Shown here piece by piece: positions 2,021 through 55,742 of a stretch of DNA of 64,000 bases. The translations under genes were made by a program, and so were the position numbers. This DNA comes from Moniliophthora roreri. Lineage: Eukaryota; Basidiomycota; Agaricomycetes; Agaricales; Marasmiaceae. The stretch covers positions 62,001 through 126,000 of the forward strand of contig LATX02000221.1 in assembly GCA_001466705.2 (NCBI GenBank), written 5' to 3'. The notes under the pieces were generated by a model. The model was not told the origin of the DNA. It worked only from the letters and a program-made list of their open reading frames with translations, and made no database searches. Position 1 is the first letter of the stretch, and each line of letters begins with the position of its first letter.

Positions 2021-3568
2021 TGATGCATTGTGTGTCCATGCACAGTGTTTCTATATAGTGTTTCTATAACTGTAATTAATACATAAAAAGAAAAATACAG
2101 CTATGCACTGTTTATGACCCACAGTCATCACACAGCCACCAGCCACTCCTACCAACTCCAGAGGTGCAACATCAATGCTTAGGAGCCATCAAAGGCCACA
2201 TAAGCACTGCTAATGAAGATGCTCAAAAACCTATGTCTCTACTATGAAAACACAAGGCCTGTGGTGCCAAAATACCCCAAAAAAAGGTGTATAAGTTCTT
2301 GATTCTCAGTTTTGTTTTGTGAGTTGGTTCAGCATGGTTCACTGTTACTGCAATGTTAAGAATAATTCTCAATGTCTCGCTTGGTAGTTCAGAGATGATT
2401 GCCTTCAAAACAACTTCTCAGATTGAGATTGGTGTTTGTCTTTTGTAAATATTTTCTTGAGTATATAGTTTTATTAATCACTTCAAAAGCAAATACTGGT
2501 ATAAGGTTCAACCAGACACTGCCCAAAGAACAAACTTCTTCTAAGTGAGAACAAAGGTACCTCTTGTACCTGAATATAGCTCTCTTAGCTATGTTCTGCA
2601 ATGATTCTCAAGAGGACAAATCTTCTAGACACTGCTAGCCTGAAACTCTCTCTGATTCACATTGAAACACTAGCCTATACTGATGCATGTCAGCTACCCT
2701 CTTGGTAAACTGATACAATGTTCTTCTTATTAGAAAACACACCTCTTGCATTAAAAACTAGGCTCTTTCTAGCTTTTATTTAGATCTCTGGTNACATGAT
2801 GCATTGTGTGTCCATGCACAGTGTTTCTATATAGTGTTTCTATAACTGTAATTAATACATAAAAAGAAAAATACAGCTATGCACTGTTTATGACCCACAG
2901 TCATCACACAGCCACCAGCCACTCCTACCAACTCCAGAGGTGCAACATCAATGCTTAGGAGCCATCAAAGGCCACATAAGCACTGCTAATGAAGATGCTC
3001 AAAAACCTATGTCTCTACTATGAAAACACAAGGCCTGTGGTGCCAAAATACCCCAAAAAAAGGTGTATAAGTTCTTGATTCTCAGTTTTGTTTTGTGAGT
3101 TGGTTCAGCATGGTTCACTGTTACTGCAATGTTAAGAATAATTCTCAATGTCTCGCTTGGTAGTTCAGAGATGATTGCCTTCAAAACAACTTCTCAGATT
3201 GAGATTGGTGTTTGTCTTTTGTAAATATTTTCTTGAGTATATAGTTTTATTAATCACTTCAAAAGCAAATACTGGTATAAGGTTCAACCAGACACTGCCC
3301 AAAGAACAAACTTCTTCTAAGTGAGAACAAAGGTACCTCTTGTACCTGAATATAGCTCTCTTAGCTATGTTCTGCAATGATTCTCAAGAGGACAAATCTT
3401 CTAGACACTGCTAGCCTGAAACTCTCTCTGATTCACATTGAAACACTAGCCTATACTGATGCATGTCAGCTACCCTCTTGGTAAACTGATACAATGTTCT
3501 TCTTATTAGAAAACACACCTCTTGCATTAAAAACTAGGCTCTTTCTAGCTTTTATTTAGATCTCTGGT
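2018..3568. repeat. Exact 775-bp direct repeat on both sides of an N
   Basis: Bases 2018-2792 recur without visible change at 2794-3568, separated by a single N at 2793. The second copy continues into unique sequence. This is what unmerged overlapping contig ends look like; the real locus probably has one copy. Confidence 0.9.
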
Positions 3569-4560
3569 TTGGAATACAATCTCAGGTCTCAACTAGCCTG
3601 CACCTCTTGCACAACTAAATAAGCTAGAGCCCAAAGTAGTTGAAAAATACTAATTGCCAGTAGCTCTTCTACCTGAACAACAACCTCATACACTCTGGTA
3701 ATTGGTGGGCAGTATCTCTTCTGCTTTCCACCTACAAAACATGTCCTCTTATATACTCTACAATATAAATAATCTAATATATCTGTCACAATAATAAAAT
3801 AAAACTGAGTCAGATGCTAAATATTATATAAACTAAGCTGTGTTTGGTAATTTCTCTGTCACAGTGTCCAATTGTAGTCAGGCTTTGTAGCCATAAACTC
3901 TTTTATTCTTTTTTTAGAATGATTGTGCAGTCTCCTGATGCTAATTGTTTGCAATTTTCTTTGTCAAACAGCTCTCCTTCTGACTCTGTTTGCAAATATT
4001 ATACTTCCATGCTACTCCACATAGTTCCTTCCTTCTCCATCTACTATCATCTGCTCTGTGGACATGTAATATGCCTCCATTTCCATGTTTAAAGTGTATG
4101 CATAAGCTCAGCTGTGCTGGTCTCTCATCATACAGCTTTATCTTCCATTTTTCCTTAATACAGGCACCTTTCTGGTAACCAATCATCTATTTCATTTCTC
4201 TAATTTGATATAGGTATCTCAAGTATCTCTTACCGATAATTTGTCATTCTCTGTTTCTCAATAATATTCTCATCTGTGTATCATTGAAGGCTTTTATCCT
4301 TCCTTCTAATTGGGTGTATATTGAAAATATTGTTAAAAGTGAAAATATTCCCTTTGGTATGCTTTTGATAGAGATATTATGTGGTGTGGTTTCCTACAGT
4401 TTTCAGAATGCTCCTCTGTGTTCAGATTTGCTGTTTATTTTCATACTAGCAGTGGTTGAGTACCCTTATATGGCCTACCATCAACCATTACTCTGCTAAT
4501 ATTTTGTATCCTTCTCTACTACTTGCTTTAACTAGCTGCTCAGGGCTCACACTAGTTCTC
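2350..4560 (+). repeat. Dispersed repeat family R2
   Basis: A long repeat that recurs on the same strand at about 41311-42770 with many substitutions. Shared landmarks are the start (AAGAATAATTCTCAATGTC), a CTTATATACTCTACAA segment near 3750/41930, and TATGGCCTACCATCAACC near 4467/42659. Short ORFs inside are not conserved. The length here is inflated by the N-flanked duplication. A weakly similar, older relative lies at about 9060-9480. It may be part of a retroelement, but no reverse transcriptase or integrase motif is visible. Confidence 0.75.
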
Positions 4561-6407
4561 AATTCCCTTATATATTTCATTTATCTTGCTGCTTCCTTGC
4601 TCCACACCCCTTCTTTTTTTTAAAAAAAAAGAAATTAATTATAAAAAGGTAAAAGTTATGCATATTACTGAAAAGTTTTCTAAGAAACAATGGTCCAGAA
4701 ACATTATGTGATTTCATGGCTACTTTGTGATATGGAGAAATTTGTGGCCAAGGCTTGTGGATGGTTTGCCAATCTTCTCTGCCACAGAGTGTCAAGGCAG
4801 AGAGACATCTGGAAAATTTACCGGCTGACCTGGCAAGTTACATAGAGTTGAGACCCTATCAAACTTGTTAAAGCTGGTTTTTGTGGGTTGTCTTGCTATT
4901 GTAACACTATAAGCCTAAATGTATTGGGTTACTGTAGTACAAGACACACTATAACTTGGTGTATTGAGTTCCAGTAAGTTATAATCTCAGTGAAGCTTAA
5001 TATAATCAGCTTTTTTGGAGCCACAACCTACTGTAACCCAATAAAACCAATGAAACCCAGTGTAACCAGTTTATAGAGGTTACATCAGGCTATAGGGGTT
5101 ACACTGAGTTAGTGTTCAGAGCCATGTAGATTGATCTGGAACAGGAAATTTTGAGAGGCTGTTAACAAGCAGAAATAATAAGATGATGTCCAGCAATGCC
5201 TTGTTGAACCAAGACTAAGCTGTAGATGAGAAAAAAAGATGATGCAGGAGTCACATGGAACTAGATGCTTCAGACCAGAGGAATAAAGGCACTATGGGCA
5301 GCTGATTTTCAAACTCCACCTCTTTCTTTCTGACCACCATCATGTCAATGCTGATGCCCCATCTCCCTCCAGCCCAAATATCTGCCAGTCCCTCCCACAG
5401 TGTCATCCTCAAGGCTCTCAAGTGTTATCAAGGTCTTCAACAGCACATAATAGGTGTCCCTTCACCAGACAAAGTGATTTCCTTCCCCTAGTCATTGGGC
5501 ACTCCTAATAGCAACTGTAGGCTTAACCAACCAGTTGCAACATGTCAAGTGGTAAGACACAACTACAGTCACTTTAACTCCAGTAGCTTGACATCGGATT
5601 TGGAGACTGTATGTGGTTCTGAGGTGTATGATGCATACTATAGCAGTAAGTTGTGTATCACACAGGTGAACACTATATGCTCATCTTTCATATTTATAGG
5701 ATCCCACACCACTCTCAACATCTCCCCAGTTAGAATGACAAGTGAGCAACACCTTCACATGTTGTATCGATATCTCACCCACACATATAGGCATGATACC
5801 ACAAGATCTCAATCTTTTCAATATTTGATGTTTGGTGATATGAGTGAGTGCTCATGCTGAATCAGATTTCACATAGCCAATCTCTTGTCAGTAAATATAT
5901 TTGATATGATATCCTGGATTCATCATTTTCTCACACTCTCAACTGATGATCATTGTAGACCTTAGTGCTAGTACATCCATTTGGTGAGTCCTTTTGTTAA
6001 TCTGGCCATGCATGCTTGTCACTGATCTATTACTCTCAGGCACAAATACCCTTGTTGTGTATCTGTACACAGTTAGATGAGTGGGAGGTTCAGTCAGGCC
6101 ATTTCCAGTATTGTTGTACCTTTGCCTGTATGTATTAGATACTTATAATATATATTCCAACTTTTTATTTCTTTATTTGGAGTTAATGGATGGAGACTGA
6201 GTAATCTCCTTTATATGGGACTATATATGATACTTTGGGATCCATTATGACTACTGGGATTCAATGTAACCACTAGAACTCAACATAACCTACTGAAACT
6301 CAATCTAAGCAACAGTGACCTGATATAATCAACCATAACTTGATGTGAACTTGGGTAACTGTCTGTGTCTGCAAGTTCACATTGAGCCTTATGAAGGTTG
6401 CAACCTA
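4561..6407. other. Degenerate repeat DNA without recognised genes
   Basis: AT-rich, CpG-poor sequence. About 4900-5120 and 6210-6400 are built from imperfect short units of the type GGTTACACTGAGT, in opposite orientations, suggesting the decayed ends of an inverted-repeat element with about 1.1 kb inside. The inside has one open frame (5495-5860, plus, 121 codons) whose translation I do not recognise. Confidence 0.4.
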
Positions 6408-6428
6408 CCCCCCCCCCCCCCCCCCCCC
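6408..6428. repeat. Poly-C run of 21
   Basis: A homopolymer of 21 C directly before the 6456 repeat edge. Its length is unreliable in most assemblies. Confidence 0.95.
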
Positions 6429-6455
6429 TGTGACAATGACCATCTGGAACCAGTA

Positions 6456-8174
6456 ATATGGCAAATCTAGGAAAGCCCCAATTTTATTCGTTTTACATTA
6501 CTTTTGGATCAGAACATTTTAATATGACACAAGATAATGGGTAATAAGAACTGGAGTAAGCCCAGTCTACTAGTCATTGCCTTAAAGAAGCTATAGTGCA
6601 GTGAAAAGTACAAAAAGCTATATGATATGCTATACAGAGGTGTCTAAGCTGTACTTTCTGACTTATCCATGTATCAGATCCAAAGCAGATCACTCCTGAA
6701 ACCTGTAGAGAACCTAACTATGGCCAAATGAACACATTGGCTAGTTAACCAAGCTCTCAAAGTGCTATCAATGGGATTTTATTTTTATTTCAACTTTCTA
6801 TGACATCTGCAAAGTGCAACATGCAGTCAAACAGTACAGAGGTAAAGAGACATCAAAACAGAAAGACAACTTAGAGCAGGAATGATCAAAGAACGATCAT
6901 CCTCCAAGGCCAATATGCAGATCAAAGCTAAAGCAGACAATCTCTTAATAAAAGAGTTCAATGGCAGCAGAAACATACAAAATAACATAACCAAGTGTGA
7001 AGTAACCTCGGAAGCTAGAGGACTGCTTTCTTAGGATGGAAGTTACTAAATGGACAGACCCAACAAGACATAAGAAGAATATCTAATGCATACAAAGTCC
7101 TAACTAGAACTGAAAGTGCATTGTCAAAGGAGATAGAAACAGCAACAGTGTGTTCTGGCCTTGGAAACTTTGGCATCTAGGTCCCTGCCAACATGTGGAT
7201 GCTAGAAAGGGAAATGCTGTAAGAAACAGAACAGATACAGCCATCTGCTTGTAGATACCTGCCTTGGAAAAGAGAAAATACAAATTATAGAGTCCAGAAC
7301 ACCTGGAGATGAAGATACCCATGTGGATATGGTTGGATACTCTAGTGGCCAGACTCCATGACATCCAAATATTCCCTCTTTTAGCATCTCTGTCACTTGT
7401 TTACTATTTTCTGAATTATCAGACATTATTTCTAATTTTCTGTAGATATATTCTGTGGACTGTATATAAAGACAGCTAGATATGTGTATATACTCAAGTA
7501 ACTCTGCCTCCTCTGATTGTGAATACATGACAAGTTTGTTTGGTGTATAAATTTGTGTGCCATTCCAGTTTTGCTTCCTCACTTCAGGCTCTGGAGATTG
7601 GTCCTGAGTGACTCCAGAGAGATAGAAATCTGATAACAAACTTGTGTTGTAAGAGATAAGAGTAACATCTTGAGTGTGTTGTAGCACTTTTCTAAGAGAC
7701 ACTTTACACCAAGAAGGAGCCTTGGGCACTTGGAGTGTGGTCTGTGTTGAGTATCAGGTTGTGACACACTTAGAGTCTTAGCAAGGGGTGTGCCTGTGCT
7801 GAACTCTTTGTAGAAACTGGTCTAGAACCTTTTCCAGTATGCTGTGTCGACATCAACAGAATTTCTTCAGAACTTGAGACATCGGTCAGACTATATCAGC
7901 TATTGAGTCTTTGTATAGGACTGTAGCTCTTGTGTTTGTGCTTTGCATATGTGTTTGTGAAATAAACCCATTTTAAACCCATCTATACTCCTTTGGAGGT
8001 GAACACTTTGAAGTAGATTGCTTCAATAAGAGAAAATCAACCTAGCTAAGAGTTTTGTTGGCATTCTAAGTGCAGCAACTCTGATCATATCAATCCACAC
8101 TTGCACAACAACCTAAGTTAGACTTTTGGAGGTTATCTTTTGGGTAGTTTTCCACTAGTCTTATCTTAGACAAA
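6456..8174 (-). mobile_element. Element X, reference copy without nested insertions
   Basis: This segment is colinear with 47860-51233, apart from insertions in the latter. Both start ATATG and end GACAAA followed by TTA. Its R1 part also matches 81-490 and 43327-43738. On the minus strand an open frame spans 7729-7202 and contains VTQDQSPEPEVRKQNWNG; the same peptide with few changes is encoded at about 50600-50680 in the other copy, so this may be the remnant of a real element ORF. I cannot name the family: no transposase, reverse transcriptase or integrase motif and no convincing terminal inverted repeat is visible. At 6941-6952 it holds the empty site that matches the CACTA insertion at 49232. 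Confidence 0.7.
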
Positions 8175-10990
8175 TTAGCAATAGCATCAGTAAATACTGA
8201 GTAATACCCAATGTGCTCAGGCTATGCTGATTATCTATAATTACAGTCATGAGAAAAAGAAGGGGAGTGGGAAGGTATGCATGTCCAGTGAAGTGGGAAG
8301 CATATGAAAAGAAGAAGGGAGCTGGAAAGGTGTAATAAGTCTGAGGGAAGAAGAAGCATATGTACTATGGAAGAGAGAAAATGTAATATTACCCCCCAGA
8401 TATAGTCTAGATTCTGGCTCTAGACACCTCTACCCCAAGGAAAATGAACTCTCTCCATTCATCTTCCATCTCTACTGTAAACTCCCCCTTCATTGCTCTC
8501 CATCACTGAAGACATCTGGGTCATCATCAAAATCATGATAGTCCAACAGAGCACCACTGTCCAAATGAGGCCTTCCATGTGCAAGTCATGAAGACCACTA
8601 TTGCTTAGTGCTGCCCAGAGTGATATGCCCAGGCACATGCTCAAAGCATCACTTACACATGTAGCTCAGGCAGTTTTGGGCAAGATGGCACTCCAGTTTG
8701 CACACAGGGCAGAGACACTAATACCACATATTTGTGCTACACAAAAGAGTTGATCTGTTGATCAGATCCTGTTCTCCTATTGTCTATGTGTATGTGGTGA
8801 AGTGTAATCAGAGTTACCACACTTAGACTCTTATTTGATTTTTGTGTTCTGAATAAGCATGTATTTGTTTATCAACATAGAGACTATGAGGATATATTTC
8901 TTTAATAATTCATTTTTATTGTGTGTTTTCTGGTTTATACTATCTCAATCAAGCCTAAATACAACAGCTAATTGCACTGAGGTGATGGTAAGACTACCCT
9001 GAAGTGATAACTCAAGTAATCAAAGACTACAGTACTCTTTGTACTGGATACAACCCTCTTGGTTGTGATCTGTAATGCACTTAAGCAGGAAAACTTCTAC
9101 TTCCAATGTAGCCTGAGCTCTCTCTAAGATGCATTGACACTAGCAAAACACTAGCTGTCTCCAGAAAGCCACCAAAACTTTCTGATACAAAGTCTTTTCT
9201 TGACTCAAAAACAACTATTCACTAAAGCACAGAACAAATATCTGGCTTTGCTGTCACTATCAAGTTTGGTTTATAGTTTTATATCTCAACTAGGTCTACT
9301 CTGAGTCCCTAGGGCCTGACATGAGGAGGAAGATCTGATCAAATGTGATTTTTCTACACAAACAATAGCTACATACAAATCATGTAGTAGTGGGGCAGAT
9401 TCCTCTTGCTCCCACCTACAAAATGGCTGTCCTTATATACTGCTGGAGACAAATATTTACAATAAAATTATAATAATAGGTATATATCATACTGGTCACA
9501 GGAAAAATCACAAAATGAACATATATAGGTTCAGTCTCTTGTCACAATAGTAATCCCATACCACATATAGGTATGCAGGTCACCAATAAATACAATCTTG
9601 GGTATCAGAAGCACAACTCAAGCTAGGCTCTCCATGCAGTATATGAGTATCTAGGTTCAGAATCCATTGCTACTGCCTAGGAGTTCCTTATCCTGTTTTT
9701 CAATGGTCAGAAATGCTCTCAACTTCCATAGGAGTCACTAAGTATTTCCTTGTTCCACCTGTCCTATCTGACTGACTGATTCTTATCTCTTATGTTTCTT
9801 CTCTTGTCTATCAGTCCTATCTGACTTCCATCTTATCACTTTCCTCCTATCTTTGGAGGGATCATTGCATCACCATGAGTCTTACGTCTCACTACATATA
9901 CTTGAGCTAATATTTCATTATATATCTGATTGAGATATCATCATATTTGTTCTCTTAATATATCATAAGTATCACCCTGAGCTTGAATGAGGTCTCTGAG
10001 AGTAAATGAAAGTTGTGTAAAAGTAAAATATTCCCCTTGATACAGCATATATATATTCAACTATTGGTGTGTCTCCTTTTGAACAACACTATATAGAGGT
10101 CCCTACAGGTTTCAGGAGGCTCAATGCACAGTATTGAGAGTTTATAAGTGACTTGGTACCTATGTGGGGCATACCATAAGCACAATTTTGAATATCGAAA
10201 CACGGTAGTTCACATATATCCAAAACTGACTGATGACAGGCTCATAACAGTCCTTCTATTTCCATGTTTTTTATTGTTTCAACCATTTAAATATGTCCAA
10301 ATGATGTTCATATGTGTAGAATTTGAAAGGTAAAATTGGTGTATTAGCAGAGTTTTCAAAAATTGGGTGTGACTGTGACCATCCAAATCAATTGAAATAC
10401 CTCAGTATAGTGGTGGACCAAGCCAAAAGAATCTAGCATCAGGAGCACATACCAGATTTGCCCTCATGTCTCCATACACCAATAGGCCCTCTCCACAACT
10501 CACAAACATGATCCCAATGTCAATGCTACTATCTTGAGTTTGACACATGTTGCTGTCTTAGCAATACTTGTACCACACCCCACACCCCATGTCACTTGCA
10601 AAGTGTATTGCATGAAGCACCCAGAAACCAAGCAGTAGGTATGTGTAGACAGCATCTAGCAAAGAGAAAGGAGAGTATAGACTGTCTGACTGAGCCTCTT
10701 GTGGCAGGTTGATGGTTGCCATCTAGGTTGAACACAATTGGTGCTTAGCACTTATTGTCCTTGAATTCTGTTCCCACAACATTCCCATATAACAAACTAA
10801 CTAGCAAGTTCATTCAATGGTTTGTTGTGGCCATCTGCAGTTTCACAGTCATTCTTGGATTTCTGGATTACGAGTCTGAAATCCGTCTTCTCCTGCCAAT
10901 TTTTTTCCTTATACAGAAGTTATAGGATGGGTGGGAAAGTTGTGGTCTGAAAGATGATGTATTGTTTTGTTTGGTTCATTCCGTACCATC
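8175..10990. other. Degenerate repeat DNA up to the repeat-gene boundary
   Basis: AT-rich and CpG-poor. About 9060-9480 is weakly similar to part of repeat R2. About 10360-10410 resembles an edge of the TA-type miniature element seen at 54465-54740 (shared AATCAATTGAAAT-like segment with 39260-39280). No gene is recognised. CpG-containing, gene-like sequence starts close to 10,990. Confidence 0.5.
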
Positions 10991-11410
10991 AATTAGGCCC
11001 CAGGAAGTTACAACGCCAGAAAACAGACTCGTACTTGCCATCGGACCCTGATGGCTCACTGCTGCAAGTCTCTGAGGTTTTTTCTGAAGTCGGTTGACTC
11101 GAGCTTCGCCCGTAGGGTGGGTCGGGAAGACAGAAATTTACCACGACCTGACCTTAATAATTTGCTTCGAAAAGGCAATGGAGAACCAGAACAGGTTACA
11201 GGAAAGGAAATACAACCAAGTAGGTTACGTGGAATATAATGAAAGTCTATATTTCTGCAGTGGAAGGAGTGATACAAATTTCGCACTTTTTGCACTTTGC
11301 ACCAACGAGCCACGAGGCGACTGGGCGAAACCAGGGCCACACGTAGCTGCGGCGTGTCTGTAGCTATGCCTATGCTGTTGCCTTGGTCCGTGTGTTTGTA
11401 AGTAAAGTTG

Positions 11411-12330
11411 CTATTTGGGGGATTCTCCCTCGTTGAAATCCTCCGTAACATCCGTTGTCCTCATTCTCCATGTCAGAGTTGTATCTGGTCGGGTATACAA
11501 CCCAGTGTCGGCGTTCGAATGCAAGTTTAACATGAGACGACAGAGCATTGTCGCTGAGATACTATGAGATTCGGTCAGCACGTCATCATTTCAGTTTATG
11601 TAATAGTACATACCAACCGACAAACATTGATAGACCTCCACGCATAAAAGGCTGAAATTATGGTTGTCAGCCTCTCTACAGGGCAGCTGAATTCCAGAGC
11701 ACTCACACCACATAGCTACACGAGAATCGGGATCAAAGAGACATTTCAACAAAGAGAGCACCCCCACTCACATAGAACGTTAAAATATTGGCGAGATTTG
11801 CTAAAACCATCACACTGTTTGCAATTGTCAGCGATTAACGCCAAAAAAAGAAAATAGAAAGGACGACCCACGTAAAATAAATTGCCCCGTCGCGGAAAAG
11901 GAGCGAGAAGAGATTCAAGCGACGAAGTTGGATGTTACCCTCGCGCCAGAATTGATAGGTCCGAGCAGCAGTGAGTACAAAGATGACTGTGTCGTATACA
12001 AACAGTACCAGCCAAATCCCAACGATGCCTGTTAAAGTAGCCTGAGACTTTTACCCTAATAGCTTCCTTCAGGGAACTGGATGCCTCACTTGTATTAGAT
12101 GGTTAGCAGGAAAGGGTACGGTAATGACTAGCACTCACGTCTGATAAGACATCCCGATATCACATACCCTTGGTACCGGATAAGGTACTTTGACTTGTCC
12201 AAAGAGCGTATACTGTTCCAACCGGGGTCAACCAGACACAAGGCACCCTCGACTTTCTGTGCACGTACACCAGCTAATCCGAGGACAAGAACGACCGCAG
12301 CGCCAAAAAACCATAAGATTCGCCGATCTG
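11411..12330 (-). pseudogene. DUF6533-type gene, partial copy 1 (3' part)
   Basis: Bases 11520-12330 equal 13216-14026 of copy 3 at an offset of 1696, except for one 52-base block. The copy starts inside the exon encoding RRILWFFGAAVVLVLGLAG and has the C-terminal exons: PFMRGGLSMFVG, then ISATMLCRLMLNLHSNA, then a hydrophilic tail ending EGESPK with the stop at 11411-11413. It lacks the first three or four exons, and the block at 12041-12092 destroys the exon that in copy 3 encodes GQGTSFDNPIFRVPT. The end near 12330 joins abruptly to copy 2. It is a duplication fragment or an assembly product. Confidence 0.75.
12041..12092. other. 52-base block that is the unreversed complement of its sister copy
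   Basis: Compared with 13737-13788 in copy 3, every base is replaced by its Watson-Crick partner in the same left-to-right order (GGACTCTGAAAA becomes CCTGAGACTTTT, and so on for all 52 positions). Flanks on both sides are identical between copies. It is not an inversion, which would give the reverse complement. Confidence 0.9.
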
Positions 12331-12494
12331 CTATATTTCTGCAGTGGAAGGAGTGATACAAATTTCGCACTTTTTGCACTTTGCACCAACGAGCCACGAG
12401 GCGACTGGGCGAAACCAGGGCCACACGTAGCTGCGGCGTGTCTGTAGCTATGCCTATGCTGTTGCCTTGGTCCGTGTGTTTGTAAGTAAAGTTG

Positions 12495-13214
12495 CTATTT
12501 GGGGGATTCTCCCTCGTTGAAATCCTCCGTAACATCCGTTGTCCTCATTCTCCATGTCAGAGTTGTATCTGGTCGGGTATACAACCCAGTGTCGGCGTTC
12601 GAATGCAAGTTTAACATGAGACGACAGAGCATTGTCGCTGAGATACTATGAGATTCGGTCAGCACGTCATCATTTCAGTTTATGTAATAGTACATACCAA
12701 CTGACGAATGTTGATAGACCTCCACGCATAAAAGGCTGAAATTATGGTCGTCAGCCTCTCTACAAGGCAGCCGAACTCCAGAGCGCTCACACCACATAGC
12801 TACACGAGAATCGGGATCAAAGAGACATTTCAACAGAAAGAGCACCACCACTCACATAGAACGTTAAAATATTGGTGAGATTCGCTAAAACCATCACACT
12901 GTTTGCAAGTGTCAGCGATTAACGCCAAAAAAAAAAAATAGAAAGGACGACCCACGCAAAATAAACTGCCCCGTCTCGGAAAAGGAGCGAGAAGAGATTC
13001 AAGCGGCGAAGTTGGATGTTACCCTCGCGCCAGAATTGATAGGTCCGAGCAGCAGTAAGTACAAAGATGATTGTGTCGTATACAAACAGTGCCAGCCAAA
13101 TCCCAACGATGCCTGTTGAAATAGGGACTCTGAAAATGGGATTATCGAAGGAAGTCCCTTGACCTACGGAGTGAACTATCAGGTGGTTAGCAGGAAGGGT
13201 ACAGTAATGACTAG
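12495..13214 (-). pseudogene. DUF6533-type gene, partial copy 2 (3' part)
   Basis: This is a second C-terminal half. The segment from 12331 equals 11247 onward (offset 1084) up to about 12700 and then differs from copies 1 and 3 by scattered substitutions, as expected for another allele or a slightly older paralog. It contains the normal form of the exon that is scrambled in copy 1, then the exons for NLANILTFY, PFMRGGLSMF and the C-terminal tail, with the stop at 12495-12497. It ends at the N at 13215. It has no start and no N-terminal exons. Confidence 0.75.
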
Positions 13215-13215
13215 N

Positions 13216-14712
13216 TGCAAGTTTAACATGAGACGACAGAGCATTGTCGCTGAGATACTATGAGATTCGGTCAGCACGTCATCATTTCAGTTTATGTAAT
13301 AGTACATACCAACCGACAAACATTGATAGACCTCCACGCATAAAAGGCTGAAATTATGGTTGTCAGCCTCTCTACAGGGCAGCTGAATTCCAGAGCACTC
13401 ACACCACATAGCTACACGAGAATCGGGATCAAAGAGACATTTCAACAAAGAGAGCACCCCCACTCACATAGAACGTTAAAATATTGGCGAGATTTGCTAA
13501 AACCATCACACTGTTTGCAATTGTCAGCGATTAACGCCAAAAAAAGAAAATAGAAAGGACGACCCACGTAAAATAAATTGCCCCGTCGCGGAAAAGGAGC
13601 GAGAAGAGATTCAAGCGACGAAGTTGGATGTTACCCTCGCGCCAGAATTGATAGGTCCGAGCAGCAGTGAGTACAAAGATGACTGTGTCGTATACAAACA
13701 GTACCAGCCAAATCCCAACGATGCCTGTTAAAGTAGGGACTCTGAAAATGGGATTATCGAAGGAAGTCCCTTGACCTACGGAGTGAACTATTAGATGGTT
13801 AGCAGGAAAGGGTACGGTAATGACTAGCACTCACGTCTGATAAGACATCCCGATATCACATACCCTTGGTACCGGATAAGGTACTTTGACTTGTCCAAAG
13901 AGCGTATACTGTTCCAACCGGGGTCAACCAGACACAAGGCACCCTCGACTTTCTGTGCACGTACACCAGCTAATCCGAGGACAAGAACGACCGCAGCGCC
14001 AAAAAACCATAAGATTCGCCGATCTGAACAGTACAGAGCATAGATTCGGAGGGCCATCAACGCTGTGAAGCTGTGTTAGAACCAACGAGGCACTGCTTGG
14101 GTCGAACGGAAACTTACTGCAAATCACGGATTGCGATATGAGGAGCGATATTTGATGGTAGACATTCACGGCCTTGCAGCTACGCAAGGGCATGAGCTCA
14201 GTAAGTCGGGCTGTGGTGTTCAGCTTACTAACCTCTGTGTTACCAAAAGAGTCAGCATTTTGGTTGAAAAACAATATTGGAAGGTATCTACCTCGATGTC
14301 CAAGGGATAAAATGGAAAAATCCCAGCCGGAAGGTTGGACGTCAGGGTGAGATACCTGACAGCAAGGAATATAATACTACTTCGCGATTTTGGTCGCATC
14401 CAAATATAAGTGATCTCGGAGTCCGTCATTGTAAAGCAGTCGTCAGTCACTTCATCCCCAGACCCTCAAGAACTCACCCACCGAGCGTGATAATGTGATC
14501 CCAAAATAAAATGGCTTGTAATAGACATTTAGTCTAGAGGATTAATTATGGACTTTATCACAGACCCGCTGGAACGACCTGCACTAAGGAATGAATATAA
14601 CTGGGAATCAAATATCAGTCGAGTCGCCCTCATAAAATACGCCCCAAGTAATCGGAGCTACTCACTGTTCTCGAGCGTCTTCTTGAGTCAAGTTCACCAA
14701 AACGCTTGTCAT
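13216..14712 (-). CDS. DUF6533-type multi-pass membrane protein, 3' end cut by assembly gap
   Basis: A start codon at 14712-14710 opens MTSVLVNLTQEDARE. Spliced in frame across short introns, it gives KCLLQAILFWDHIITL, then a DSEITYIWMRPKS segment typical of the DUF6533 domain, a region ending HQISLLISQSVIC, then ALMALRIYALYCSDRRILWF, two further hydrophobic segments, and LLFRDGAIYFT joined to VMVLANLANILTFY. Such proteins are common in Agaricomycetes, predicted to cross the membrane about seven times, and have no established function. The last exon (ISATMLCRLMLNLH) runs into the N at 13215; its natural end (tail and stop) is seen only in copies 1 and 2. Exon edges come from GT/AG and frame logic, not from transcripts. 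Frame continuity suggests an intact gene. Confidence 0.8.
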
Positions 14713-40964: not shown

Positions 40965-41135
40965 AGGCCCTGCTCAGGAACCGGAGTTGGAGTTGAGTTG
41001 GGTTGATTTTGGCTGATTTTGGCACAAGATGGGTTCAGTTGAGCTAAACTCAGAAGTTGTGGCAAACCCATCTTGTGCCAAAATCAGCTGAAATCAACCC
41101 AACTCAACTCTGACCCCAGTTCCCAAGCAGGGCCT
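40965..41135. mobile_element. Foldback miniature element, about 171 bp
   Basis: Nearly the whole element is one inverted repeat: arms of about 70 bases starting AGGCCCTGCTCAGGAAC and ending with the matching inverted sequence, around a short centre near 41035-41060. The arms carry GGTTGATTTTGGCTGATTTT-type sequence. RNA or single-stranded DNA from it would form a long hairpin. No clear target duplication. Confidence 0.8.
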
Positions 41136-47571: not shown

Positions 47572-49317
47572 TCAGAAAATTTCCCATTATGTTAAGGCCA
47601 TGCTACACAGGCAATTCAATGACCTCCAGATCTTCCTTTCTCTTTGCCGTTGGGTGCTTTCTCGACTGCAATCCTGTTTTCCCTCTGGTTCCCACATAAA
47701 TTTGACAATCAACAGGCCAAAACACATCATGAAAGCTGCTTGATTAATGGCTCTTTTCATGGCTTTCTCTCACACATGTTTACCACCTCCATTTATCCTC
47801 GACATCTCCTTCTCTTAGTCCTCCAGGTTCCCTTGGACTATGACTCCCACGACTCATTAATATGTTGAACCTAGAAAAGACCCACTTTTATTCATTTTAC
47901 ACTACTTTTGAATTGGAATACTTTAATATGACACAAGATAACAGGTAATAAGGACTAGAGTGAGCCTAGACTGCTAGTCATTGCCTTAGAGAAGCTATAG
48001 TACCTTGGAAAGTACGAAGAGCTATATGATACACTATACAGAGGTGTCAAAGCTATACTTTCTGACTTATCTATGTATCAGATCCAAAACGGATCACTCC
48101 CGAAACCTGTAGAGAACCTAACTATGGCCCAATGAATGCATTGGCTAGTTAACCAAGCTCTCAAAGTGCTATCAATGGGATTTTAATTTCTACTTTATCT
48201 TTCTATGACATCTGCAAAGTGCAATCTGCAGTCAAGCAGTACAGAGGTACTTAGAGGAGACATCAAAACAGAAAGACAACATGGAATAGGAACAATCATA
48301 GAATGATCCTTCTTCAAAGTCAATATATGGATCAGAATCAAAGCAAGTGATCTCTTAACACTACGTACAAGGTGTTCTTTTTATGCTATTAATACAAAGG
48401 AAATACACTCAGAATACTGCTATATATTTGCTTCCAGACAACACTCAGAAAATTTCCCATTATGTTAAGGCCATGCTACACAGGCAATTCAATGACCTCC
48501 AGATCTTCCTTTCTCTTTGCCGTTGGGTGCTTTCTCGACTGCAATCCTGTTTTCCCTCTGGTTCCCACATAAATTTGACAATCAACAGGCCAAAACACAT
48601 CATGAAAGCTGCTTGATTAATGGCTCTTTTCATGGCTTTCTCTCACACATGTTTACCACCTCCATTTATCCTCGACATCTCCTTCTCTTAGTCCTCCAGG
48701 TTCCCTTGGACTATGACTCCCACGACTCATTAATATGTTGAACCTAGAAAAGACCCACTTTTATTCATTTTACACTACTTTTGAATTGGAATACTTTAAT
48801 ATGACACAAGATAACAGGTAATAAGGACTAGAGTGAGCCTAGACTGCTAGTCATTGCCTTAGAGAAGCTATAGTACCTTGGAAAGTACGAAGAGCTATAT
48901 GATACACTATACAGAGGTGTCAAAGCTATACTTTCTGACTTATCTATGTATCAGATCCAAAACGGATCACTCCCGAAACCTGTAGAGAACCTAACTATGG
49001 CCCAATGAATGCATTGGCTAGTTAACCAAGCTCTCAAAGTGCTATCAATGGGATTTTAATTTCTACTTTATCTTTCTATGACATCTGCAAAGTGCAATCT
49101 GCAGTCAAGCAGTACAGAGGTACTTAGAGGAGACATCAAAACAGAAAGACAACATGGAATAGGAACAATCATAGAATGATCCTTCTTCAAAGTCAATATA
49201 TGGATCAGAATCAAAGCAAGTGATCTCTTAACACTACGTACAAGGTGTTCTTTTTATGCTATTAATACAAAGGAAATACACTCAGAATACTGCTATATAT
49301 TTGCTTCCAGACAACAC
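47572..49317. repeat. Exact tandem duplication, 2 x 873 bp
   Basis: 47572-48444 is repeated at 48445-49317 with no difference seen. Each unit contains the end of the outer CACTA left-arm segment, the R1 part of element X and the first 86 bases of the CACTA miniature element. The breakpoints share TCAGAAAATT. No N is present here. Confidence 0.9.
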
Positions 49318-51233
49318 TCAGAAAATTCTATTAGTTTCAAGTTATCATCATATAGTGAAAACAGCAAGCATACTCTGGATTTTAATTTCCAGAAGAGTCA
49401 GTGTTTCTTGGTTATTTTATAATAATGAAGTTATAGAATTATCCTTTAATTTTCTAATTACAAATATACTAAATTTTCTGCCTTATAAAATAGTGAGAAA
49501 ACATTTAGAAAACAAATATAAGATTTTGAATTTTATATTAAAGGAAACATGTTAAATACAAAAGGAAAACTAAATGAAAACTACTTAAGAACTGCTTTAA
49601 AATATAGTGTTTTCATATGATTTTCCTATTATTTTCCTAGTGTTTTCCTAGTGTTTTCTCTGACTTTCCCACAATAGAAAATGTGGAATTTTTATCTTAT
49701 CTTATCAGCATTTTCTGAGCATCTTCAACCAGAGAAAATTTAATGTTTTCTTAGTATGGAGATTATTCTAATATATTGTATTATCTATTAATTCTCAGAA
49801 TTTGAAAATTCTATATCTTTTGCTGCTGAAAATTTAGTATTCTCCAGGCATATTCTTGTTGAGAGGACACAATTGAAATTTAGAATTTATATATAGTTTT
49901 ATAGAAATTCTCTTTGCAAGAAGATTAAGTGTTTTCTCAATGAGAAAACCATGTTAAAAGAACACCTTGTATGTAGTGTAATAAAGAAGTCACCAGTGGC
50001 TAAACAATATGTGATAAGCTAACTAGGTACAAAGTCATCTTGGAAAGATGGAAATCACTTCCAAAGGACATCCACTACCTACAGACAGATACAACGAGAC
50101 ATATGAAGAATATCTAACGCACAAGAAGTCCTAAATAAGACCAAGCATGCATTGTCAAAAGAGATAGGAACAGTAACAGCATGTTCCGACCTTGAAAACT
50201 TTGGCATCTAGGCATCTGCCAATGTGCGGATACTAGAAAGAGAAATGCTGTAAAGAGACAGGATGGATACAGCCATCCGCTCGTAGATACCCAACTTAGA
50301 AAAGAGAAAATACAAATTATGGAGTCCAGAATGCCTGGAAACATAGATACCCATGTAGATATAGTCAGATACCCTAGTGGCCAGACTCTGTGACAGCCGA
50401 ATATTCCCTCTTTTAGTATCTCAGTCACTCATTTATTATTTCCTGAATTATTGGACATTATTTATATTTTTCTGTAGATATATTCCATGGACCATATATA
50501 AGGACAGCTAGATATTCATATATACTCAAGTGACTCTGCCCCCTCTGATTGTGAATACATGATGAGTTTGTTTGGTGTATAATTGTGTATGCCATTCCAG
50601 TTTTGCTTCCTCACTTCAGGCTCTGGAGATTGGTCCTGAGTGACTCCGGAGAGATGGGAATCTGATAATGAACTTGTGTCATAAGAGACAAAGAGTAACA
50701 TCTTTAGTGTGCTTTGCGCTTTTCTAAGAGATAACTTTACACCAAAAGTTCTGGTGGCTTTTAGAGTGTGGCCTGTGTTAGATATCAGGTTGTGACACAC
50801 TTAGAGTCTTAACAAAGGAATTGGGCCTGTGATTAAGCTCTTTGTAGAAACTGGTCTAAGACCTTTTCCAGTACACTGTGTACTGTAGTTGTCTTAAAGA
50901 AGTCTTAAACTCCATAGGGTCAGACTATATTGGCTACTGAGTCTTTTAGTGGAACTGTAGCTCTTGTGTTTTGTGCTTTGTGCACTGTGTTCTTGTGTGT
51001 GTGTTTGTGTGTTTGGATATAAACCCTTTTAAAACCCATATATATACTCCTCTGGAGGTGAACACTTTGAAGTAGATTGCTTCAATAAGAGAGAATCAAC
51101 CTAGCTAAGAGTTTTGTTGGCATTCTAAGTGCAGCAACTCTGATCACATTGATCCACACTTGCACAACAGTCTGAGTTAGACTTTTGGAGGTTATCTTTT
51201 GGGTAGTTTTCCATTAGTCTTATCTTAGACAAA
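47860..51233 (-). mobile_element. Element X inserted in the left arm of the CACTA element
   Basis: Colinear with 6456-8174 once the 873-bp duplication and the nested miniature element are removed. TTA is found on both sides (47857-47859 and 51234-51236), a possible target duplication. The uninterrupted right arm of the CACTA element, near 53320-53345, provides the approximate empty site: arm text resumes at 51237 (GTCATC...CAGAACAGTCC) where it had left off at GACTCCCACGACTC. Confidence 0.75.
49232..49978 (+). mobile_element. CACTA-type miniature element, copy 2 (747 bp)
   Basis: Starts CACTACGTACAAGGTGTTCT and ends with the inverted CACTACATACAAGGTGTTCT; TAA on both sides (49229-49231, 49979-49981). 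Element X copies elsewhere read straight through this point (6941-6952 and 43231-43246), so the insertion and its 3-bp duplication are directly supported. A truncated first 86 bases of the same element also appear at 48359-48444, inside the tandem duplication. No transposase. Confidence 0.93.
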
Positions 51234-54059
51234 TTATTGTCATCATTCAGAACAGTCCCGACATCACCCAGGGTGGTTGTCATTGCTGTCAGCTCAGAGT
51301 AGAAATTGTAGATGCGTTGCAATCCTTTCAGAAGACTTTCTATCTATTGATCATGGACATTCAGATTCCAATGTCCCTTATCAATTACTGTCACCATCAA
51401 CAACACACTTTTTTCTGTGCTATGCTCTGGCTACACTATCAACCTGCATGAAAGCCTCTCCTTCTACACTTATACTCCAGCCAGCATCTATAACTACACC
51501 TGTTGCAGCTCTACATGTCACACCACTGTCTAAATCAATTCCACTGACATTTTCTACCTGGCTGTAGTATGTCAACATCAGATTCTCTCAGCATCAGCAG
51601 AATTAACTTCTGCAACTGATCTTCTAGTGCACAGTGGAGTCAGAGCTGTAGCACAGCTCAGTAATCTTTTTATTGATTTTTACTCATGTACTCAGCACCC
51701 TAGTGAATCATATACATTTCTATCTTGAGTTTGTGTCCCCTGTAAGCTGAACGATCCATATACGTGGCTTGTAGTAATTAAGTGGGCAATGTGGAATGTC
51801 AAGTGCTCAACAAGCACCCACTATTGTCCTCCTTGAGACCATGCTTTCTGTTACTTCAATTCATTTCTTCTGCTGAATATACTGACTCCAGAGGATTCAT
51901 ATAACATTAAAAACATTATGTAGCAAATATTGGAGGATTATCTGCTGGAGGGCACTTGTAAGTAGCATAAAAGACACCAAAACAATGAGAAACTCACCAC
52001 ATTCACCAGATTTCTGCTAATATCAGCCATATTCCAGTCTTCTATTGGCATTAGACTGTCAGAAACACTTAAAAGCATTCACTCAGAAGTGATAATGTTG
52101 AAACTATAAGTTCTTGTTGAAGAATTAATGTGGGGGTCAGATTTGGGTTGACAACTACTGACATTGTTATGTGTCAAAGTGCACAACCTGCATCTAAAAT
52201 TGGTCCACCAATTTCCTGACCTTTCCCTGACCCAAGAAGCTCAGAAACCCTCCAGAATAATTCTTGAAGTAATCATTCACTGTTTTTCTAAGATAAAGAG
52301 TAACAGGAGCATTCATAGGTTCCTAAAATACAACAAAGTGGTGAGTTTCTCATCATCAAGCAATATTTAACAAGACTACTGTGCCTAACCCAATCAATAG
52401 TGTTCCAATGGTGCCTGGTTGTCTTCTTAGATCCTATTAAAGTCCTATAGATGCTGCATATTTAATGGAAGGGTCCTCTTTGACTGCAGAAGAGTTGATG
52501 TAATTGTAGGTCAAGAATGGGCACTTGTCAGGCACTTCTTACTTTGTTACTTTGTGCCTTCCAAGTGCACTGAATTTCAAACACTATTATGACATTAATG
52601 CAGCAGTAATACTATATACAGGACAAATAGACTATGTGAGAAGTATACCTCTCATGGAGCACTACTTCCCATACATTCAAGCTTATCGTATAACATTAGT
52701 GCCCCACTCTACTGCCTGTACCTGTCATCTGACATGGGAGCACCCCCACTCGTATGCTATGAGCCCACATGCATTAACCTGTTCCAAATACCTGGCATGA
52801 TGCAGAGCTCACGTCGTATGCTGCAGTATGGGTTCAGGAATGCAATGGCAGTGGGTATTTTTATGCTGTGTTCAGTGAGAGAATTGGCAATAGAGTATCA
52901 GGTGTGTAGACTATTTGAATGGGAGAATTACATGGTATGAAGTAATGAACTGGGGAAGGTAGTGGGAAATGTCAGATAAAAGGTATCACGGGAGCAAAGC
53001 ATCAGCAATGTCTTGAATGAAACAGTCTGAGGGGCAAGAAATATTCGCTGACCATTATCATGGAGTCTGTCATCTATTTTTCAAGTGGAGAAAGCACATG
53101 GGAGAGGCCTTCATGCAGGTTGATAGTGTAGCCAGAGTATAGCACAGAAAAAAAGTGTGTTGTTGATGGTGACAGTAATTGATAAGGGACATTGGAATCT
53201 AAATGTCTGTGATCAATAGATAGAAAGTTCTCTGAAAGAATTGTGACACACTAATAATTTATACCCAAGCTGACAGCGACAATGACCACCTGGGCAATGT
53301 CAGGACCATTCCGAACAATGACAAGTTGTGGGAGTCATAGTCTGAGGGAACCTGGAGGGCTGAGAGGAGGAGATGTCAAGGATAAACAGGGGTGGTAAAC
53401 ATGTGTGAGAGAAAGCCATAAAAAGAGCCATTAATCACTTGTTGATTCCAGCATAGAGGTACAAGGAAGAAAACAATATAATAGTCATTATCACATTATA
53501 ACTGACTGTAGATAGTTAGTTTTGAAGAGAAGAATAAGGTGTTGGGAATGCACCTTATTTCTAGAGCAGCAACAACAACAAGTTCCTACGAGACATTGAT
53601 GGCAGTGGGAACAATGGTGACAACTGTGAGAAAGATGTCAGCAACATGGTTGATGTTGAGGCGCTGGAGATGAGTACTTGAGTCATGCGACTCCAGCAGC
53701 TGACACTAGCAGACAGTCTCACGGAATTTTGAGGAAAGTGAAGGTGCTGAGAGAGGAGCAGAGAGAAGCAGGAGAAGAGTGCAGTGGGGTGTGGCCAAAT
53801 TCCCAGTGATAGCTGTCTTATCAGACACCACGTTTGACCTGATTGTGGTGTCTAATTGGTTCAGATTGGTGGGAACCAAAGGTGACAAAAAAAGTATAAG
53901 AGCAAAGCATATAATTTTAAGACTGTTTTTTTTTGTATAAGATTTACCTCTACTATATAAATATTTTTAGTCAATTAAATTCTATAGAAAACTATTCTAA
54001 AAGGACCTTTTGTCTGTAGTGATTACCATATATTAGTGCAATCTAATCTAGTTTATTGC

Positions 54060-55742
54060 TTTCTTTAAGATTCAATATATGTTCAACTAGATACTTTTGA
54101 TGTAACAAGCCTGTAGCATATAATTCATCATCAACCAATTGAGAATCCAATTCCTCTGCCTCACACTCAGCCCTACTTGCTGCCCAGTGTACAAGTGCTT
54201 CCAGGTCATTGAATCTGGAAATCTAAGTAGAATCATCTCCCATTACCTTAAGAATGTTTTGTGCAATCATTAAAGACTCAATGAGATGATACTAACTATC
54301 AAGATCACAGCCTGGAAGGTCCAGAAGAATAGAGAATCAGCCTTTCAGTCAGTTGAACACATGTTCCACAAATATCTGTTTCAATGAGAGCCAATAGTTC
54401 CACTGCTTGCAAACTTTGGGCTGTTCTTGATTATAAGTAAGGTCAAAGTCATTGAATGGCCATACTGTAGCATTTCATTCATTTCAGATGTCACAGGTCA
54501 CAGGCCCCAAAATTTTCAAAATTTTTTGAGCCAGTCACAGGTGTCCAAGGGTCTATCCAAACACTCATAGCAAGTCACAGGTGCTAATAGACCCAAAATC
54601 ATCCAAATTTGGCAGTTCTGAGCACCAATATCTGAAAAATTTTCAGCAGTCACAGACCACTAGCTCTCCATCCAAGAGGTCACTTCCAGATGATGAGGTC
54701 ACAGGTCATATAGCCATCTGAAATGAATAAAATGCTACAGTATCATGAATTTTGTCAAAGGGTATTCTGTGAAATAGTATTGAGTGTGGGTTCATGTCCA
54801 TGAAAGGAAAGATATTGCCTTTACCAACAAGTATATACTCATGTGACTTGAAGTACCACTCACAGTTCAACCAAATCTCAGAATTCCTAAACACTCATGT
54901 ATTCTGCACAGATTCTAGCCAGCCAAATTCATAGGATGTAAAAATCCCTTGGTGATTCACTGTAGCCTGTAGTATAAGCTTAGAAGTTGGTTAGTGTGTG
55001 AATAGCAGATTAACACAAATACAAAACTCACAGCACAAAACTTCTTCCAGAAATAGTACATGCTTGTGGTAAAGCCTAATCAAAGACTCATCTGCAGAAC
55101 CAATACAGCCCAGAAATCCTCCCTTTGCCATTTCTCTAGATATGAATTATTGTCTTTCCTCACCTGGCCAAGCAAGATGTTGATCATGTCAATTACAGAG
55201 TGCCTTTGAGACACATTCAATATAGTTGAATACACTTTCTTCAGCAATAACCAAAGCAGTTTTGACTGCTGTTTCAGCTTCTATGCAACAAGGAAATGCA
55301 GTGAGTTGGTATTTGACAGGATGTTGGTGATTCTGTAGCCCACTGATGAATATTGGGTCTCCTCCTATCATGTTGTGTATCTTTCAAAATGTGTCACAAC
55401 CCATACTACACAAGTGAAGCAAATGATAAGTATAAAGAAAAATGTGAAAGAAACCCACATGTGTACTGCATCCATGCTCTAAACCAGTGTTCAGAGAATC
55501 TGTATATCATGACATTAAAAAAATCCTTCAACTTCTGCAGGTTATATGGTCTCTGCCTCCCAAATCAACCATACTTCCTCCATCCCCAACATGCTCTCCA
55601 AGCTAGATATGCTATGATCATTGCAGAGAAAATTTCTTCATCTTCCTCAGCATCTGCAAACAGCACAATGGCAAAGGTCTCCAGAGCTCTAACATATTGT
55701 TTCTTCTTGGCTGGGCTTTGTGTTGATCTGGAAAATGCTTAA
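54060..55742 (-). pseudogene. DDE transposase relic, PIF/Harbinger type
   Basis: Read 55742 to 54060: DTF, stop, KIHNMIGGDPIFI, HQHPVKYQLTAF, ESVFNYIECVSKAL; then GFLGCIGSADESLIRL (position of the first catalytic Asp region), TVNHQGIFTSYEFGW, then VFRNSEIWLNCEWYF followed by SHEYILVGKG, where active relatives have the second Asp in GEYILxDSAY; here that Asp is replaced. After a miniature-element insertion it resumes with FDLTYNQEQPK, KQIFVEHVFN (the conserved Glu), LLDLPGCDLDS and LMIAQNILKVMGDD. Multiple stops, several consistent with CGA to TGA. Clearly dead. About 400 codons originally. Confidence 0.8.
54465..54740. mobile_element. TA-flanked miniature inverted-repeat element, 276 bp
   Basis: Ends CTGTAGCATTTCATTCATTT and the inverted CTGTAGCATTTTATTCATTT, extending about 26 bases; TA on both sides (54463-54464, 54741-54742), as in Tc1/mariner-type miniature elements. 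It interrupts the Harbinger transposase relic between KIHD and FNDFDL. The interior has several GTCACAGGT motifs. Confidence 0.88.

Follow-up and report, generated by a model that had tools for sequence, protein, structure and literature searches.

Short unreversed-complement blocks recur in the Moniliophthora roreri genome assembly and most likely reflect a software fault

One described genomic change that resembles the block treated here, a 52-nt stretch called E1, is the microinversion. Both are short, equal in length to the ordinary form and sharply edged; a microinversion, however, is a reverse complement, whereas the order of bases in E1 is unreversed. Microinversions in Drosophila are the subject of PMC1779558. 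Parallel-primed PCR, in which synthesis is primed in the parallel orientation, is a laboratory claim made in PMC4304224, and the system outlined there differs from ours in being a test-tube reaction with oligonucleotide primers rather than a genome feature. On the side of data processing, an error in decoding colour-space reads can yield an in-register parallel complement, but it predicts two further letter swaps, neither of which was found in the assembly. A strand-handling fault during read correction, patching or gap closing has in common with our case short replaced stretches with sharp edges, an ordinary form that exists elsewhere, and contig overlaps left unmerged. It differs in that, among the papers listed by our literature searches, there was no published description of an assembly fault that produces complement-only blocks.

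The window analysed here is a 64,000-nt stretch (contig C120, positions 62001–126000) of the M. roreri assembly, which holds 59,427,881 bases (59.4 Mb) in 154 contigs. The first-pass annotation of the window had described E1 as the complement, written without reversal and with sharp edges, of the corresponding stretch in a sister copy. We compared the two stretches base by base, and 52/52 positions of E1 are the parallel complement of copy C (Table 1); the alignment that had been proposed as a check on the claim has no mismatches. When the same stretches are compared directly, 0/52 positions are identical, and the true reverse complement of the stretch in copy C agrees with E1 at 20/52 positions. 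For the sequence as written, these values exclude both a true inversion and gene conversion, as the annotation had argued. The flanks are exactly identical over 521 nt to the left (11520–12040 and 13216–13736) and 238 nt to the right (12093–12330 and 13789–14026), and E1, with its sharp edges, is the sole difference between copies A and C over 811 nt. The probability of an exact 52-nt match arising by chance in the window is approximately 1e-22 if equal base frequencies are assumed, which rules out a chance origin. The ordinary form of the E1 stretch is present at four places, namely in copy C, in copy B, which provides a second 52/52 parallel-complement partner, and twice on contig C110 (L003, 52/52; L004, 95% over 41 nt). 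The block adds two stops to the reading frame of copy A, and the same frame is open in copy C.

Table 1. Complement blocks, repeated copies and assembly landmarks in the window (positions in window coordinates; blocks carry E labels).
Feature	Position	Strand	Remarks
Single N	2793		left 775 nt repeated exactly to the right
10.4-kb piece between the Ns	2794..13214		four blocks inside; probably a single, thinly supported contig
E2, 36-nt parallel-complement block in a high-copy repeat	7848..7883	+	36/36 complement of L008, in register
E6, 18-nt parallel-complement block	9877..9894	+	18/18 against L041, flanks in register; one exact partner among loci compared
E5, 49-nt parallel-complement block	10188..10236	+	45/49 against L041, flanks 177/198; L080 partner 46 nt at 97.8%
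Copy A	11520..12330	+	bears E1; ends at abrupt join 12330/12331
E1, 52-nt parallel-complement block	12041..12092	+	52/52 against 13737–13788 and 13125–13176
Exact 371-nt repeat of 11247–11617	12331..12701	+	entered through the abrupt join behind copy A
Copy B	12604..13214	+	first 300 nt 95% like A and C; last 229 nt also on contig C110
Ordinary form of E1 stretch, copy B	13125..13176	+	52/52 complement match with E1
Single N between copies B and C	13215		2793 and 13215 are the only Ns in the window
Copy C	13216..14026	+	identical to A except E1; starts directly after the single N
Ordinary form of E1 stretch, copy C	13737..13788	+	compared base by base with E1

The surroundings of E1 carry independent signs of faulty assembly. 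Ahead of the N at 13215 the order is a segment u (from 11247), copy A, an exact second u (from 12331) and copy B, with copy C lying beyond the N. At the end of copy A the sequence jumps back abruptly into u, reproducing exactly what begins at 11247. The last 229 nt of copy B are found again on contig C110, directly behind a single N, so that the end of copy B equals a contig start there. A third sign is the repetition around the N at 2793. Scaffolders that place one N where contigs overlap would leave such unmerged overlaps at Ns, and all N runs in the stretches that we compared are one base long (54/54, overlapping loci counted). Fourteen Ns were checked for overlap between their left and right sides. 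Two show exact unmerged overlaps, the 775 nt at window 2793 and 1,654 nt at L067:5598 (C97:415598), nine have other shared stretches (86–100% alike, some inverted or lying off the N), and three have none. The loci of blocks E7, E12 and E13, each about 3 kb, contain no N and do not show this sign. A and C are probably not sister copies but a single locus that was assembled twice and carries the fault in one of its versions. The third copy B, the N at 13215 and three further blocks in the window had gone unnoticed in the earlier reading.

Elsewhere in the window, 47572–48454 and 48445–49327 form an 883-nt exact direct repeat with an offset of 873 and no N between its copies; it may result from duplication during assembly or be a genuine tandem repeat. 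A Pfam search with three open reading frames of the window identified two as pieces of a GMC oxidoreductase and assigned no family to the frame that runs through copy C. In a protein search with a GMC oxidoreductase piece, the best identity was 90% among the matches listed (the best 120 of 363).

E1 is one of four complement blocks in the window, all of them inside the 10.4-kb piece bounded by the two Ns. E2 was first met when the window was compared with its own complement, as 24 exact bases and then as 30 nt at 96.7%. Approximately 18,037 of the 64,000 bases of the window, as counted before L080, have another copy among the loci compared and are able to show such a block. The clustering of the four blocks in the piece is suggestive only, because the piece makes up approximately 6.3 of the 17.2 kb that can be tested (summed over the listed stretches of at least 200 nt).

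The annotation had proposed that unreversed complements be sought in the rest of the assembly, and this search was positive. With the four of the window included, we found 14 blocks with lengths of 18, 24, 36, 37, 41, 45, 45, 49, 49, 50, 51, 52, 54 and 55 nt. Every one of them is the parallel complement of a stretch whose ordinary form is present in at least one other place. E1 as a 52-nt oddity is therefore real in the file but not unique, as 13 further blocks accompany it. Two blocks outside the window, one of 49 nt in L030 and one of 24 nt in L016, lie in loci that had been chosen for other reasons. The repeat at window 49990–51250 has 857 candidate places genome-wide, and a genome-wide search with its complement returned seven places (7/7 candidates); a diverged copy of the repeat (L035), complemented and used as a second query, led to the same seven. 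Both queries missed the shorter blocks of this same repeat, E2 (36 nt) and the one in L016, so seven is a lower bound. A further block of 55 nt lies in the locus of one of the seven places. On contig C18, three complement blocks are found within 0.93 kb (C18:33582–34508, L076). Two of these, E9 and E10, sit in inverted copies that are 88% alike and cover almost the same segment of the repeat; their edges are 5 bases and 1 base apart, and the blocks are 45 and 51 nt long.

The as-assembled form is matched solely at its own place, among the loci compared, for 12 of the 14 blocks; the remaining two, E9 and E10, match each other. In the high-copy repeat, flanked complement matches were seen at 53 loci for E9, 57 for E8 and 40 for E13, these loci overlapping one another. 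For nine blocks there are 29–80 spanning matches, a count that takes each match whole irrespective of its inside and may include the block's own place. E5 has two partner places, L041 and L080. The direction of change is less sure for E6 and E11, because each has one exact partner, and for E3, because its two partners, one on each side of an N, are identical to one another.

Among copies in general, the complement stands apart from the other letter exchanges. In 77 sequences (327,261 bases, overlaps included), we counted 987 flanked pair-wise cases of the complement, whereas both remaining swaps, A↔C/G↔T as well as A↔G/C↔T, had 0. The two swapped forms of the 49990–51250 repeat gave no genome-wide candidate; an empty answer is uninformative by itself according to the tool, and is to be read beside the seven places returned by the same stretch when complemented. 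A stricter census of low-identity in-register blocks, which counts copy pairs and not events, found the complement at ≥85% in 98/517 blocks of 20–29 nt, 245/431 of 30–39 nt, 130/368 of 40–49 nt and 164/383 of 50–60 nt, and in 0/5,831 blocks of 5–19 nt (the 18-nt block escaped the filter) and 0/1,555 of 61–200 nt. For A↔G/C↔T, the level of ≥85% was attained in 246/5,361 blocks of 5–9 nt and at no other size, and these are probably adjacent transitions. A looser census placed complement blocks between 18 and 59 nt, with the lengths up to 59 not separated one by one. It also gave 14 keys for plain string reversal, all of 16 nt and matching at ≥80% (for example L012:1552–1567), which may mark a hypervariable spot of the repeat.

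We consider that the blocks are a software artefact of some kind, with a probability of about 0.95, and the first-pass annotation, which had named a software fault as the most likely cause, is supported by the 14 recurrent complement-only blocks and by the faulty joins. This cause was chosen because copying along an antiparallel template cannot give a parallel complement; to our knowledge, synthesis on such a template never yields one. The step responsible may be read correction, polishing or patching, in which a stretch of about 18–55 nt would be replaced or filled with its strand mishandled. Reversing a minus-strand patch without complementing it would give the in-register complement of the correct stretch, and complementing a plus-strand patch without reversing it would give the same result. 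Such faults would survive where few reads support a contig, as we infer for the piece 2794–13214, and the clusters in this 10.4-kb piece would fit a contig built from very few reads. The piece would overlap the next contig, and A and C would then be one locus that is faulty once. The ceiling near 55 nt would suit a patch set between two anchors in one short read, or equally a weak part of a long read after correction.

The comparison of block insides with their flanks bears on the same question. The insides of E9 and E10 match other copies at 51/51 and 45/45 positions and their flanks at 166/195 and 172/198, as would be expected of a patch taken from other copies. Flank windows that match as well as the inside make up 12–13% for these two blocks versus 23–100% for the other 11 blocks tested, and that the contrast is clear in E9 and E10 alone counts against the software reading. 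Also on that side are the position of E9 and E10 at one place of the repeat with different edges, for which independent faults need an added reason, the N-free loci of E7, E12 and E13, and the 3/14 Ns that lack a left–right overlap.

The best surviving rival, itself a variant of the software artefact and counted within the probability given above, is that colour-space reads (SOLiD-type, two-base) were decoded from a wrong seed base, leaving a complemented segment in register and up to a read length long. A sequence and its parallel complement share one colour string in two-base encoding, and the proposal accounts for the in-register placement as well as for the size limit near 55 nt. Random errors or wrong seeds should, however, also produce both remaining letter swaps, of which there are 0 flanked cases among the sequences compared and 0 genome-wide. 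Their absence excludes decoding by random error; complement alone would need a seed-base fault that is strand-specific, and we regard this version as unlikely. A search of the literature on the two-base encoding found nothing.

It is more improbable still that true short inversions were written out by a tool as complement only, a writing fault that likewise falls within the software artefact. Short inversions are an established type of genomic change, and in-register reverse-complement blocks do exist between copies in this assembly (44 block keys of 11–368 nt in the looser census, the shortest of which may be due to chance). Against this stand the 20/52 agreement of E1, as written, with the reverse complement and the relation of A and C, which, if they are one locus, are without an inversion. 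Inverted repeats at the block edges show no clear excess either, with a mean of 4.4 in the flanks of the 14 blocks versus 3.9 at 300 random places, and were rejected as a cause of the blocks. In the window itself, 54491–54714 (224 nt) and 41036–41064 (29 nt) are in-register reverse complements of another copy, as ordinary short inversions or misjoins would be.

A process in the living genome that overwrites clustered stretches of 18–55 nt with the complement of a homologous copy, its order kept, deserves next to no credence: in its favour, blocks recur and group together (four lie within 4.2 kb of the window and three within 0.93 kb of C18) and two diverged inverted copies, E9 and E10, are hit at nearly the same place, but we know of no polymerase, recombinase or ligase that makes parallel complements, the polarity of the backbone would have to be reversed, and the host contigs have faulty joins. 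The best identity of the inside is at least the mean of the flank windows in 12 of the 13 blocks tested (E6 left out, E4 below), and the blocks therefore give no sign of an age separate from that of their surroundings. A megablast search of the E. coli collection (20,395 records; 5,426 genomes) with the complement of E. coli 16S was without a match; this control covers one gene and requires an exact 28-base word.

The blocks are almost certainly no genuine trait of M. roreri, and the fault is recurrent in its assembly. As biology they can be dismissed; as a matter of quality control they are important. Complement blocks can break genes, as the two stops in copy A illustrate, and could pass for hypervariable or novel sequence. 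Such faults can be found quickly, and without reads, by searching an assembly with its own complement written in unreversed order.
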